From NCBI RefSeq assembly GCF_000296465.1, contig NZ_JH815204.1, positions 550,113-614,112 on the forward strand: 64,000 nucleotides of DNA. The letters run 5' to 3'. Position 1 is the stretch's first letter, and each line of letters begins with the position of its first letter. Below, one piece after another: positions 42,759-47,382 of the stretch. The position numbers and the translations under genes are program-made. Origin of the DNA: Barnesiella intestinihominis YIT 11860. GTDB lineage: Bacteria > Bacteroidota > Bacteroidia > Bacteroidales > Barnesiellaceae. The notes beneath the pieces were generated by a model that was given only the letters and a program-made list of their open reading frames with translations, was not told the origin of the DNA and made no database searches.

Positions 42759-43724
42759 ATGAAAATATATATGAAACAATTAAGATTAATCATTTTATTC
42801 TCTATTTTGTCTTTGTCGGTAACTGTGAGGGCTATGGAGGAACAATCGGTGTCATTGGATACACCTACGGGAAAAATTAACGGTAAAATAGGATTACCGG
42901 ATGCTAAAAAGCCACCGATAGTTTTGCTGATAGCCGGTTCGGGGCCTACCGATATGGACGGAAATACGAATTCCGGCGGATTTTCTATGAAGAATAATTC
43001 ATTGAAATTGTTGGCGGAGGGGTTGGCGCAGCGAGGTATTGCGACTCTCCGTTTCGATAAAAGGGGAATTGCTTCGAGTTCTGCGGCTACTAAAAAAGAG
43101 AGAGACCTTAGGTTCGAAGATTATGTGACAGATGTTCAGGGCTGGATAGATCGGCTGAGCGAGGATAGTCGTTTTTCCGATGTATTTGTTTTGGGGCATA
43201 GTGAGGGTTCTTTGATTGGTATGTTGGCGAGTGTCGATAATCCGAAGGTAAAAGGTTTTATTTCGTTGGCAGGAGCCGGTCGGCCGGCTTATGATATAAT
43301 AGAAGAGCAACTGTCGGGGCAACCGGCAGAGGTCCGGCATCTGGTAAAATCGATCAACGATTCGCTGAAAGCTGGAAAGGAAGTATCCAATATTCCTATG
43401 GGATTGATGACTTTATTCCGTCCATCTGTTCAACCTTATCTTATATCGTGGTATCGGTATAATCCACAAGAGGTGATTGCGAAATTGAGGCAGCCGGTAT
43501 TGATTTTACAAGGCGATAAAGATGTACAGGTGTCGGAGGAGGATGCCAAACTGTTGAAACAATCTTTACCGAAGGCACAATTCCAGATTTTGAAAGATAT
43601 GAATCATGTGTTGAAAACGTGTGAGTCGGTCGATATGCAAGTTCAGCAGGCTACTTATGCTAATCCCGATTTACCCGTTCAAGAGGATTTATTGATAACG
43701 ATTGAAAAATTTGTGAAACGATGA
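42759..43724 (+). CDS. Exported alpha/beta hydrolase
   Basis: A serine hydrolase with a signal peptide (LIILFSILSLSVTVRA). Nucleophile S148 in LGHSEGSLIG, acid in LQGDKDVQVSEED, histidine in MNHVLKT; the oxyanion-loop GSGPTDMDGN lies near residue 58. 321 residues. The true start may be the ATG at 42771 (MKQLRLII). DUF2089 overlaps its stop by 4 bases, so translation is probably coupled. Substrate unknown; esterase or peptidase are possible. Confidence 0.9.
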   Translation: MKIYMKQLRLIILFSILSLSVTVRAMEEQSVSLDTPTGKINGKIGLPDAKKPPIVLLIAGSGPTDMDGNTNSGGFSMKNNSLKLLAEGLAQRGIATLRFDKRGIASSSAATKKERDLRFEDYVTDVQGWIDRLSEDSRFSDVFVLGHSEGSLIGMLASVDNPKVKGFISLAGAGRPAYDIIEEQLSGQPAEVRHLVKSINDSLKAGKEVSNIPMGLMTLFRPSVQPYLISWYRYNPQEVIAKLRQPVLILQGDKDVQVSEEDAKLLKQSLPKAQFQILKDMNHVLKTCESVDMQVQQATYANPDLPVQEDLLITIEKFVKR

Positions 43725-44017
43725 CGACAAGTGTGACTAGAAAAAAATTGCCCTTGCGGTGTCCTGCATGCGATGCTCCGCTTAGAGTATCAAAAATGAT
43801 TTGCGGTCGTTGTGCGACAGAGGTGTCGGGAGAATTTGAACTACCGGTTTTGACCAGCTTGAATGAAGAAGAGCTACGATTTATGCTTGAATTTGTAAAA
43901 GCGAGCGGCAGTTTGAAGGATATGGCGAAAAAGATGGGGGTAAGTTATCCTACTGTGCGCAATTATTTAGATGATTTAATAGAGAAACTCAATAACATGG
44001 AAGAAAATGAAAGATAG
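43721..44017 (+). CDS. DUF2089 zinc-ribbon/HTH protein
   Basis: A 98-residue protein: N-terminal zinc ribbon CPACDAPL ... CGRC (residues 14-31), then a helix-turn-helix reading GSLKDMAKKMGVSYPTVRNYLDDL (given here in pieces: GSLKDMAKKMGV, then SYPTVRNYLDDL). This is the DUF2089 arrangement, so it is likely a small DNA-binding regulator. It overlaps the hydrolase gene by 4 bases and the YIP1 gene by 11, so the three are one unit. It may autoregulate the operon or sense the envelope through YIP1 (inference). Confidence 0.88.
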   Translation: MTTSVTRKKLPLRCPACDAPLRVSKMICGRCATEVSGEFELPVLTSLNEEELRFMLEFVKASGSLKDMAKKMGVSYPTVRNYLDDLIEKLNNMEENER

Positions 44018-44594
44018 TTGGAAATTTATATCGAATCCTTTTTATAAAGTAGCCGGTTATAAAGCTGCCGGGTGGGGGATATTGGGCATAGTTATAACGA
44101 CTGTGATCGCTTATGGGGCAGATGTGCATTTTCATGGATTGCTTCATTATGGTGGAGCTCCTCATAGCGAGTGGTGGTGTTTTGTCGTGGAGCATTTGGT
44201 GATTTGGTTGATACCTTCGTTATTGGTTTATATATTGAGCCTGTTTTGCAGTCGTTCCCATGTTCGTCCGATAGACGTTCTAGGAACAGTTGCTTTTTCC
44301 CAGCTGCCTTTTGTTTTGTTGGCTTTGTGCATGACTTTCCCACCGGTACGGCATTTCATGTCCATACAGTCGTTACAGGCCATAGAGGATGCGCTATCCG
44401 ATAAAATGTTTCTTTTTTCGGCTATTTGGATAGGGGCTTTGAGTCTTTTGATTGCGATCTGGGTTTTGTATTGGATATTTCGAGCTATTTCGGTTTCTTG
44501 TAATTTAAGGGGGCGTAATTTGTGGATTGTGTTTATTGTAGGAACTTTCGGCGGAGATATTCTTTGTCGTTATTTAATAGGGCTGTGTTATTAA
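44007..44594 (+). CDS. YIP1/DUF1282-like integral membrane protein
   Basis: A 195-residue inner-membrane protein with about five hydrophobic helices and the N-terminal FISNPFYKVAGYKAAGWG typical of bacterial YIP1-family proteins. Overlaps DUF2089 by 11 bases. Its TAA stop (44592-44594) is also the left target duplication of the second MITE copy, so the element landed exactly at the end of the gene without altering the protein. Confidence 0.85.
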   Translation: MKDSWKFISNPFYKVAGYKAAGWGILGIVITTVIAYGADVHFHGLLHYGGAPHSEWWCFVVEHLVIWLIPSLLVYILSLFCSRSHVRPIDVLGTVAFSQLPFVLLALCMTFPPVRHFMSIQSLQAIEDALSDKMFLFSAIWIGALSLLIAIWVLYWIFRAISVSCNLRGRNLWIVFIVGTFGGDILCRYLIGLCY

Positions 44595-44793: not shown

Positions 44794-44830
44794 TTGAAAG
44801 GGGGCAATGATTTTATTTGCCCCCTTTCAA
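44794..44830. terminator. Hairpin between convergent units
   Basis: Perfect 14-base arms TTGAAAGGGGGCAA and TTGCCCCCTTTCAA with a 9-base loop. The T-tract is weak on both sides, but position between the YIP1 operon (plus) and the DUF4252/ECF operon (minus) suits a bidirectional terminator. Confidence 0.75.
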
Positions 44831-44850
44831 TATCGGTTTGCGGATAAGGT

Positions 44851-45330
44851 TTATAACCCTGCGTCTTTTGTCAACTCTTGAAGATGGGTTATTGAAATAT
44901 CTCCTAATAGACGTATAACAGTAAATTCTCCACAGTCGCCGTCATCGACCAGCATGATTAATTCTTTGATCTTTTTGTCTGTTTTGGGTTGCACGTAAAA
45001 AGCTACGGTCTCGCCGTCGTCTTTTACTTTCATCAGTTCTTCGTATGGAGCTTTTTGAAATACGATACTTTCTTTTCGCATTTGAGGAATCAGAGCTTCA
45101 TTGTCCTCGCAAGTTAAGATTTGAATTCGGTCTAACTCGTTGATAACAGCTTTTAGATTTAATCCTTCTGCGTCGATTTGTCCTTCGGGCATCATATTCA
45201 GCAATGCCTTCGATATGTTGACGTATGTCACTCCTTTTTGATTAGCGAATTTTTCTATGAAGTTGTTTTCGGCAGTAGCTGAAAGAATACCGAATACAGC
45301 TAATAATAGAATATAAATTGTCCGTTTCAT
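44851..45330 (-). CDS. DUF4252 exported protein, third paralogue of the operon
   Basis: A 159-residue exported protein (signal YILLLAVFGILSATA) with the DUF4252 pattern: FIEKFANQKGVTYVNISKAL near the N-terminus and a C-terminal KIKELIMLVDDGDCGEFTVI block. Starts 2 bases after the anti-sigma-like gene and ends before a hairpin, so it closes the five-gene ECF operon. More divergent than the two paralogues at the front of the operon. Function of DUF4252 is not known. Confidence 0.85.
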   Translation of the reverse strand: MKRTIYILLLAVFGILSATAENNFIEKFANQKGVTYVNISKALLNMMPEGQIDAEGLNLKAVINELDRIQILTCEDNEALIPQMRKESIVFQKAPYEELMKVKDDGETVAFYVQPKTDKKIKELIMLVDDGDCGEFTVIRLLGDISITHLQELTKDAGL

Positions 45331-45332
45331 AA

Positions 45333-45827
45333 TTATTTGTATTTTAGATGTTTATTGACTATTCGATTGGTCTCGATAATTTCTTTTTGGGCTTGTTGCC
45401 ATTGGTTCGTCCCCTTATTTAATTTCTGGGAAACGAGAATTAAAGCTCGTTGAGCCTCGGCACAGGCATATATTTCTTGATTGCTGAGTCGTTTGGAAGA
45501 TGGTTGCCGGTACACGTATAATCCGGTGGAAATCGCTAATATAATACCGGCAGCAATACCGCTTATCCATTTCCAATTTCGGGAAAAAAGAATCTGCCTC
45601 TTTTTATCGGGCAACCGATCTATGTATGACGATAATTTTTCTTCCAGATGATCGGGAATATGTACCGAACGATCGGGTATAAGAGATAAAATGATGCGCT
45701 TCTCTTGAATAAAATCCTCTGGAACTTCGTGGGTTGCGAGATAGTCTCTCAATCCTTGTTCTTCGGTATCCGATAGCTCTCCTTTGAAGAACATGTCTAT
45801 TTGTTGTCGTAATTCTTGTTCATTCAT
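45333..45827 (-). CDS. Putative anti-sigma factor, single membrane span
   Basis: A 164-residue protein. The N-terminal ~85 residues are cytosolic and helical, with LRQQIDMFFKGELSDTEEQG reminiscent of Bacteroidetes anti-sigma N-termini. One membrane helix (WISGIAAGIILAISTGLYVY, about 87-106) is followed by a short periplasmic tail of about 58 residues. It overlaps the sigma-factor gene by 4 bases (ATGA), the usual sign of a sigma/anti-sigma pair. No FecR domain, so not a TonB-coupled regulator. Confidence 0.8.
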   Translation of the reverse strand: MNEQELRQQIDMFFKGELSDTEEQGLRDYLATHEVPEDFIQEKRIILSLIPDRSVHIPDHLEEKLSSYIDRLPDKKRQILFSRNWKWISGIAAGIILAISTGLYVYRQPSSKRLSNQEIYACAEAQRALILVSQKLNKGTNQWQQAQKEIIETNRIVNKHLKYK

Positions 45828-46321
45828 AATCTTTGTATGAATAGTTCTTTAATCGTTTTTCTGGCCCGGGAGAGAAGTACCCGTATATTGGCGTTACTCA
45901 AACCGGTTTCGGTTTCTATCTCGTCAGTGCTTTTGTCTTCGAAATGCCTTAAAAGTAGAATTTTACGTTGTTGTTCGGGAAGTTTATTTATGATGTTCAA
46001 CAGAACCTTCATGTCTTCTTTTATTTCATAGGCCGTATCGGGTTGTGGCGTAGGCTCTGTCTTTTGAACTAATACAGAATCGTTGTCCGTCTCGATTTGT
46101 GGCGCTCTTAGTGTGTCGAGGCATAAATGTTTTATCGTTGTGATGGCATAAGCCTCGTTGTTTTCTATGTTTTCAAGACTTTCCCGTTTCTCCCATAGTT
46201 TCAGATAGGTGTTTTGTACCATATCTTCTGCATCGTATTCATTTCCAAGATATCGAAAAGCAATGTAATACATTTTCTTATGACAGGGTAGAAATCTCGC
46301 TTTGAACTCTTGATGAGTCAT
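45824..46321 (-). CDS. ECF sigma factor (sigma-70 family)
   Basis: A 165-residue extracytoplasmic-function sigma factor: region 2 with GNEYDAEDMVQNTYLKLWEK (about 26-45) and region 4 LPEQQRKILLLRHFEDKSTDEIETETGLS (in pieces: LPEQQRKILLLRHFEDKS, then TDEIETETGLSNANIRVLLS). No regulatory C-terminal extension. Third gene of the operon, 2 bases after the second DUF4252 gene, and overlapping the putative anti-sigma by 4 bases. Confidence 0.95.
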   Translation of the reverse strand: MTHQEFKARFLPCHKKMYYIAFRYLGNEYDAEDMVQNTYLKLWEKRESLENIENNEAYAITTIKHLCLDTLRAPQIETDNDSVLVQKTEPTPQPDTAYEIKEDMKVLLNIINKLPEQQRKILLLRHFEDKSTDEIETETGLSNANIRVLLSRARKTIKELFIQRL

Positions 46322-46323
46322 AT

Positions 46324-46758
46324 CTAGTTCGTTTTAGATTTTTCGAGCATGTCGGATTTTAAGTTCCCTTTGCAACGTACAACGTTAATTTCGTCTGAAT
46401 ACAGGGATATGACTACTATTTCTTTTATCTTCTTCGGAGTAGACTTGATAAGGATTTTTACAAATTCATCGTCTTCACTGGTAGTGAGAATCGTTTCATA
46501 GGGTTTAAAGTCTACTTCTTCAATTTCTTTTTTTAGGGCTAGATAGGTTGCGTTGTCTATATCGGCTTCTACTACTTCAATGGCCTTAACACCGTCAACT
46601 ACGCCTTTTACCTGAGGATTTTTGAAATCTTCCGTATAGTATTCGGCATTTGGCAGCTCCTTCGTTTTTTTGAAAAGATTATCAATTTTGTTATTGGCGA
46701 ATGAAATTTGCAGAGTCGACAATAGTACTATAATAAGAAGAAAAATTCTTGATTTCAT
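46324..46758 (-). CDS. DUF4252 exported protein, second paralogue
   Basis: A 144-residue exported protein (signal IFLLIIVLLSTLQISFA). Same DUF4252 plan as its neighbour: NNKIDNLFKKTKELPNAEYY, acidic middle, and KIKEIVVISLYSDEINVVRCKG near the C-terminus. Lies 20 bases after the first paralogue and 2 bases before the sigma gene. Confidence 0.87.
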   Translation of the reverse strand: MKSRIFLLIIVLLSTLQISFANNKIDNLFKKTKELPNAEYYTEDFKNPQVKGVVDGVKAIEVVEADIDNATYLALKKEIEEVDFKPYETILTTSEDDEFVKILIKSTPKKIKEIVVISLYSDEINVVRCKGNLKSDMLEKSKTN

Positions 46759-46778
46759 AGTGATGTATTTATTGTTTA

Positions 46779-47234
46779 TTATGCGTTGTCTTCTATGATA
46801 TTCTGCATTTGATTAGGATCGATTTTCCCTTTGATTCGGATTAAACTGATTTCATTTTCTTCGAGGGAGATAATGACGATTTCCCGAATTTTTTCTTTTT
46901 CTATTTTCATCAGGATTCGGACAATCTCGTTTTCTTCGTTCGAGCTGGTTACTGTTTCATAGCCGTCGGAATCGCATTGTGTTATTATTTTCTCGAATCT
47001 CGTATAATCTTTGGACGAGATATTTTCAGCATCGATAATACTCATCGATTTTATTCCTTTCAGTTCTGACGAAAACGGTTTGAGTAATCCCAAAACGAAT
47101 GAATTGAGGTTTACTTTCTCTGCATTGGGCATTCGGGAAGCCGTATTGAATAAGTTGTCGATACAATTGCTGGCGGAGATAGAAGAGAAACTGCAAAATG
47201 CTGCAAGCGCTAAAATCAAAATTTTTGTTTTCAT
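46779..47234 (-). CDS. DUF4252 exported protein, first gene of the ECF operon
   Basis: A 151-residue exported protein (signal ILILALAAFCSFSSISA; the Cys in SNC just after is not a good lipobox). The C-terminal block KIREIVIISLEENEISLIRIKG parallels its neighbour, so the two are tandem paralogues. It leads the operon. A candidate ECF-type promoter is 27 bases upstream. Confidence 0.87.
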   Translation of the reverse strand: MKTKILILALAAFCSFSSISASNCIDNLFNTASRMPNAEKVNLNSFVLGLLKPFSSELKGIKSMSIIDAENISSKDYTRFEKIITQCDSDGYETVTSSNEENEIVRILMKIEKEKIREIVIISLEENEISLIRIKGKIDPNQMQNIIEDNA

Positions 47235-47260
47235 ATCTGTTGTTTTTTAGTTGTTACTTT

Positions 47261-47280
47261 AATTTAGACCGGTGCACCTT
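47261..47280 (-). promoter_or_regulatory. Candidate ECF-sigma promoter of the DUF4252 operon
   Basis: On the minus strand AAGGTGCACC then GGTCTAAATT stands where -35 and -10 boxes would be, 27 bases before the first ATG, and no TAnnTTTG box is close by. GGTGCACC is an 8-base palindrome. This suggests the operon is read by its own sigma factor; not tested. Confidence 0.4.
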
Positions 47281-47336
47281 TTAGGGCCTTTCATATAGGA
47301 GACGGATAAATAATAAATATGTTACAAAGAAAAATA

Positions 47337-47382
47337 AAAAAAGCGAGGGAAAAATGATTTTCTTTTTTCACCTCGCTTTTTT
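47337..47382 (-). terminator. Intrinsic terminator after the Kor/Vor operon
   Basis: Arms AAAAAAGCGAGG and CCTCGCTTTTTT separated by a 22-base loop that contains a smaller GAAAA/TTTTC stem, with T-tracts on both sides. Confidence 0.85.

Follow-up and report, generated by a model that had tools for sequence, protein, structure and literature searches.

Proteins of the DUF4252 family are named just in passing in the open-access papers that we searched and have no known function, and three of them are encoded around an ECF sigma factor and a putative membrane anti-sigma factor in a 64,000-nucleotide stretch of Barnesiella intestinihominis YIT 11860 (the window). This raises the question of whether such proteins are simply what the sigma factor makes, or whether at least one of them also takes part in sensing the signal that sets it free.

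The operon comprises five genes on the minus strand, 47234-44851, in the order DUF4252 protein A (47234-46779), DUF4252 protein B (46758-46324), ECF sigma factor (46321-45824), anti-sigma factor (45827-45333), and DUF4252 protein C (45330-44851). These coordinates bear out the tight packing described in the original prediction, which had been made from the sequence alone and gave gaps of 20, 2, -4, and 2 bases. It had also set the locus apart from classical surface signaling, and indeed there is no FecR match in Pfam or NCBIfam and no receptor gene in or adjoining the operon; membership in the FecI-FecR-TonB systems is ruled out on architecture, since the FecR-type anti-sigma factor and the adjacent TonB receptor are both absent. 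The convergent neighbors on the plus strand (43721-44594), behind a hydrolase-like gene, encode a DUF2089 zinc-ribbon/HTH protein and a 195-residue membrane protein that matches neither Pfam nor NCBIfam models. An Rfam search of the operon region likewise gave no match.

The 165-residue sigma factor has both regions expected of its kind (Sigma70_r2 and r4_2), and the NCBIfam model NF058625 (sigma_PG0214, 'GFO_1088 family ECF-type sigma factor') matches it over 163 positions at 178.2 bits, above the curated cut-off of 130. Its identification as an ECF sigma factor is thereby confirmed, and by passing the cut-off it can be assigned on sequence to the GFO_1088/PG0214 family, the lineage of Porphyromonas gingivalis SigCH (PGN_0319, which we take to be PG0214). 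All three exported paralogues exceed the Pfam gathering cut-off for DUF4252 (PF14060, 23.9 bits), as anticipated, and a whole-genome search found no further DUF4252 genes. Protein A (151 residues, 67.2 bits), the product of the first gene, has a signal peptide without a canonical lipobox and is equivocal between two local DUF4252 types (59 vs 53 bits); its closest paralogue in the window is protein B (144 residues, 42.9 bits), with 48 of 141 positions identical in a pairwise comparison. Protein C (159 residues, 95.5 bits), soluble and exported, is of the GFO_1090 type in that NF058626 (GFO_1090 family) is its best NCBIfam family, but its 89.9 bits lie below the curated cut-off of 150.

Where the operon begins and ends had been predicted from a perfect hairpin on one side and a candidate promoter on the other, and only the first of these stood. 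The hairpin 3' of the last gene (44794-44830, minus strand) has a perfect 14-bp stem (-23.8 kcal/mol, z -5.1) and is a possible terminator, with no U-run behind it. The proposed promoter box at 47261-47280, in contrast, is not conserved in the genus. The gap in its motif, given as AAGGTGCAC-N3-GTCTAAA, is in fact N2, and a genome-wide search for AAGGTGCAC..GTCTAAA with up to three mismatches returned 11 matches against 18 for the reversed control, so that we rejected it as a promoter box. A search for the housekeeping promoter TAnnTTTG between the operon and the upstream gene gave no match. The conserved promoter instead lies at 47326-47301 and reads TGTAACA-N15-CGTC, with its -35 element TGTAAC at 47321-47326 and, 16 bases behind it, its -10 element CGTC at 47301-47304 (both minus strand). 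TGTAACA and CGTC are invariant in nine genomes of the genus, and the -35 element is conserved across the phylum. The promoter directly follows a hairpin with a T-run (47337-47382, minus strand; 18-nt arms, 89% complementary) that ends the upstream oxidoreductase operon and has counterparts in the genus.

In the phylum as a whole, 64 of 101 non-identical operons with linked DUF4252 genes have exact GTAAC-N16/17-CGTC ahead of their first gene, against about 0.1 in 81 for shuffled sequence, a count that overstates the number of events because related genomes are not independent. Many of the remaining operons have, in this position, a variant that differs by one or two bases, and the spacing between the two elements is 16 in most operons and 17 in more distant groups. 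The motif travels with the start of the operon, standing before the sigma gene in operons that open with it (sigma, anti-sigma, DUF4252, DUF4252) and before the leading DUF4252 gene in those where two of these precede the sigma gene. It also occurs at DUF4252 loci with no sigma gene nearby: the exact form lies 46-68 bases before the ATG in 5 of 14 such loci, and a form with one mismatch in a sixth. Because the promoter stands before several DUF4252 genes that have no sigma gene anywhere near, as well as before the first gene in both layouts, the sigma factor very probably controls its own operon and DUF4252 genes, as had been supposed, and we have high confidence in the reading, drawn from these positions, that it is autoregulated with DUF4252 as its dedicated output. 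This conserved promoter sequence was not previously known to belong to DUF4252 proteins.

Four of the loci lacking the motif (L125, L131, L139, and L146) encode proteins with lipobox-like signal peptides, have no sigma linkage, and look like a separate DUF4252 lineage. Within one family of the phylum, L131, L139, L146, and L150 form a DUF4252 lineage with neither sigma linkage nor motif, with lipoboxes in the first three.

We surveyed how generally the two kinds of gene occur together, counting a DUF4252 place as linked if it lies within 4 kb, on the same strand, of a sigma gene exceeding the NF058625 cut-off. Among 60 genomes of relatives, 44 of 51 DUF4252 places are linked, and three of the seven others (one in one genome, two in another) sit at or beside contig ends. 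Across 247 genomes of the phylum the figure is 86 of 141, and 25 of 35 further phylum loci around unlinked places have a lower-scoring ECF sigma gene directly upstream. As a test for scattered DUF4252 genes lacking linkage to sigma genes, the survey did not refute the original prediction. The commonest order in the phylum is sigma, anti-sigma, DUF4252, DUF4252, and the order seen in the window, with one or two DUF4252 genes before the sigma gene and one behind the anti-sigma gene, is found in its genus and in some other Bacteroidales genomes; among the matches listed it also occurs on named Prevotellaceae and Parabacteroides contigs. The arrangement is far beyond chance, recurring in the genus and, with related orders, throughout the phylum.

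Several variations on this arrangement were seen. In other species of the genus, a paralogous pair of sigma and anti-sigma genes occupies a second locus (L166-L171), which lacks the motif and is missing from the window's own genome; in several copies of it, a DUF4252-like exported protein, diverged and sub-threshold, precedes a protein of ~300 residues that may be an outer-membrane barrel. At four distant DUF4252-sigma loci the next genes look, by eye, LemA-like and TPM-domain. Some long open frames had suggested fusions of the anti-sigma factor with DUF4252; none were found, the frames being DUF4252 with a C-terminal extension (DUF2807 in the three checked). At three loci in one family of the phylum, a DUF2807 'head GIN' adhesin-like domain is fused to the C terminus of DUF4252, and at three others the slot behind the anti-sigma gene seems to be filled by proteins resembling, again by eye, DUF2807 repeats.

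The 164-residue product of the fourth gene is identified as the anti-sigma factor from its gene position and from an AlphaFold2 model (pLDDT 86), with a weak match to the 'anti-sigma factor' model NF052375 (20.8 bits against a cut-off of 100) and no Pfam family. The model comprises a four-helix cytoplasmic domain (residues 3-71; helices 3-15, 20-32, and 37-49, a linker, and helix 61-71), a single membrane helix (82-106), as in the predicted single-span topology, and a lone, bare periplasmic helix of 48 residues (116-163); the packing of these domains is uncertain, as the pTM is 0.45. Class I anti-sigma domains (ASDI) are defined by an N-terminal three-helix bundle, a linker, and a fourth helix (PMC7406223), and the modeled helices follow this layout. 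Similarity to known anti-sigma factors is weak (RsiW, Z 2.7; the MucA cytoplasmic domain, Z 2.3; Foldseek best RsiW, E 2.2), and a sequence search of solved structures gave chance-level matches only. We nevertheless consider it quite probable, on the strength of the model, that the protein is class-I-like, in a phylum where only 6% of ECF sigma factors have a recognized class I anti-sigma factor (PMC7406223). Members of its family are 136-264 residues long and none of the 81 has the zinc-binding HxxxCxxC motif, and the model contains no sensor domain.

DUF4252 protein C is modeled (pLDDT 89) as an alpha/beta sandwich. Its weak structural matches include DcrB, Mog1, PsbP, and EagT6/SciW and have Z scores up to 6.4, in a range, below 8, that may mean merely a common arrangement; with no Foldseek hit at E < 0.001, they hint at a Mog1/PsbP/DcrB-like alpha/beta fold. 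No relatives of RseB/MucB or LolA were listed in the fold search, and protein C matched no solved structure by sequence. In a simple lipobox scan, the first DUF4252 protein behind the anti-sigma factor has no lipobox in any of 76 cases and is soluble in all 76, and a second one, where it follows, is a lipoprotein in 18 of 29.

Taken together, we favor, with a probability of roughly one half, an autoregulated ECF sigma module serving the cell envelope, with protein C as sensor and feedback brake. At rest, the cytoplasmic four-helix domain of the membrane anti-sigma factor would keep hold of the sigma factor. Upon a change in the envelope the anti-sigma factor would be lost, probably by proteolysis, and the freed sigma factor would then transcribe its own operon from TGTAACA-N15-CGTC, yielding more sigma factor, more brake, and more DUF4252 protein. 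Protein C would most likely bind and shield the bare periplasmic helix, in the way that RseB and MucB bind the periplasmic helices of RseA and MucA as their main element (PMC7400510), and so act as both sensor and brake; proteins A and B would be effectors, as the lipoprotein DUF4252s of other genomes may be. That protein C, as a proposed periplasmic co-regulator, acts on the anti-sigma factor directly is a tentative proposal by analogy, made because of where its gene lies, because it is soluble, and because the anti-sigma factor lacks a sensor domain. The fixed place and solubility of the first DUF4252 protein and the bareness of the helix are consistent with a role in sensing. Weighing against the favored reading are the missing RseB/MucB match of the DUF4252 model, the lack of a strong Foldseek match for the brake, the sub-cut-off GFO_1090 score of protein C, and the lipobox-bearing DUF4252 lineages that have neither linkage nor motif. 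With still greater reserve, one could extend this to the whole phylum, with DUF4252 proteins as periplasmic co-sensors, one soluble paralogue guarding the anti-sigma helix in the manner of RseB though with an unrelated fold, and the others, expressed from the same promoter, constituting the stress response.

Nearly as likely as the docking of protein C is that the sigma and anti-sigma factors are autoregulated and all DUF4252 proteins are effectors, for example in periplasmic or outer-membrane maintenance, with the anti-sigma factor sensing alone or by way of a protease that acts on the periplasmic helix. Dispersed DUF4252 genes carry the promoter as plain targets would, the number of copies varies from 1 to 4 among relatives and across the phylum, and the existence of DUF4252 lipoproteins and of forms with an adhesin-like DUF2807 domain fits an envelope effector. 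Yet one soluble DUF4252 protein keeps its place behind the anti-sigma factor throughout the phylum while other copies move, which is more than an output requires, and an anti-sigma factor without a sensor domain of its own is not what this reading would lead one to expect.

It is improbable that the sigma factor is a heme/iron or redox regulator like SigCH, with its main targets elsewhere in the genome and the DUF4252 genes as passengers. It does share an NCBIfam family with PG0214, and direct regulation of cdhR and hmuYR is reported for SigCH (PGN_0319), which means that the regulon need not be DUF4252 alone (PMC5607195). Published responses of homologues are to H2O2 with loss of PG_0686, to biofilm growth, and slightly to iron shortage, the last being a slight rise of PG0985-0987 (PMC10434189). 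However, when we searched the window genome for TTGTAACN15-17CGTC, five of the six matches (against one for the reversed control) proved intragenic or not positioned ahead of a gene on the same strand, leaving that of the operon as the only one in promoter position. In six of eight sister genomes the perfect match is the one at the operon, which in the other two carries one mismatch, and single-mismatch matches in the genus are not far above control. Since the window genome has no other exact match placed as a promoter and the sister genomes are alike, the sigma factor seems to serve mainly its own operon in this genus, and the linkage with DUF4252, kept across the phylum, also speaks against passengers. 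Membership in the EcfO-Reo and Das/Dma systems of Bacteroides, likewise sigma/anti-sigma pairs of this phylum that drive small exported proteins of unknown function (PMC13114119), is refuted on architecture, as their anti-sigma factors span both membranes with a membrane helix, a long disordered tether, and an outer-membrane beta-barrel (PMC13088901) whereas that of the window, at 164 residues in a family of 136-264, has one membrane helix and ends in a single modeled helix with no tether or barrel, and as their outputs are NigD rather than DUF4252 proteins.

Parts of the cluster are already catalogued, as NCBI models exist for three of them (the GFO_1088 sigma factor, GFO_1090, and the GFO_1091 lipoprotein), and our literature search found no paper describing the sigma/anti-sigma/DUF4252 set as a system. 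Our verdict is that the operon is a conserved, largely undescribed variant of the kind that combines a sigma factor, a membrane anti-sigma factor, and a periplasmic partner. The conserved tie of DUF4252 to a single sigma family, a single anti-sigma architecture, and a single promoter assigns it a place in physiology, and the promoter can serve as a reporter.

Among the closest counterparts in published data is one in Prevotella bivia, where PREBIDRAFT_RS05890-05910 follow the same order by locus tag (DUF4252, DUF4252, sigma factor, hypothetical protein, DUF4252) and all five genes change together in RNA-seq, although they are merely listed there among the changed genes with no mechanism proposed (PMC11410844). 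In P. gingivalis, the PG_0214-0218 (SigCH, PGN_0319) and PG_0985-0987 clusters, which are co-induced (PMC10101095), similarly bring together an NF058625 sigma factor above the cut-off, a putative anti-sigma factor, and a DUF4252 gene; they differ from the window in having no DUF4252 genes before the sigma gene in the listed order, and DUF4252 is given no role there. In its order of sigma factor, membrane anti-sigma factor, and soluble exported protein, the operon resembles rpoE-rseA-rseB-rseC of E. coli and algU-mucA-mucB of Pseudomonas, both of which are autoregulated and use the periplasmic helix of the anti-sigma factor as the docking element (PMC7400510). However, RseB and MucB consist of a LolA-like half-barrel with a small C-terminal domain, and no relation to DUF4252 was detected in sequence or fold searches, the best Z score of 6.4 being to other proteins; DUF4252 proteins are also smaller, occur as tandem paralogues, and are served by a different promoter. 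An RseB-like loop, if true, would show how envelope stress is sensed in a phylum poor in recognized class I anti-sigma factors, across its gut, oral, and environmental species, and if DUF4252 proteins are indeed co-sensors, evolution in the Bacteroidota would have produced a separate counterpart of the sigma-E/RseA/RseB pathway.
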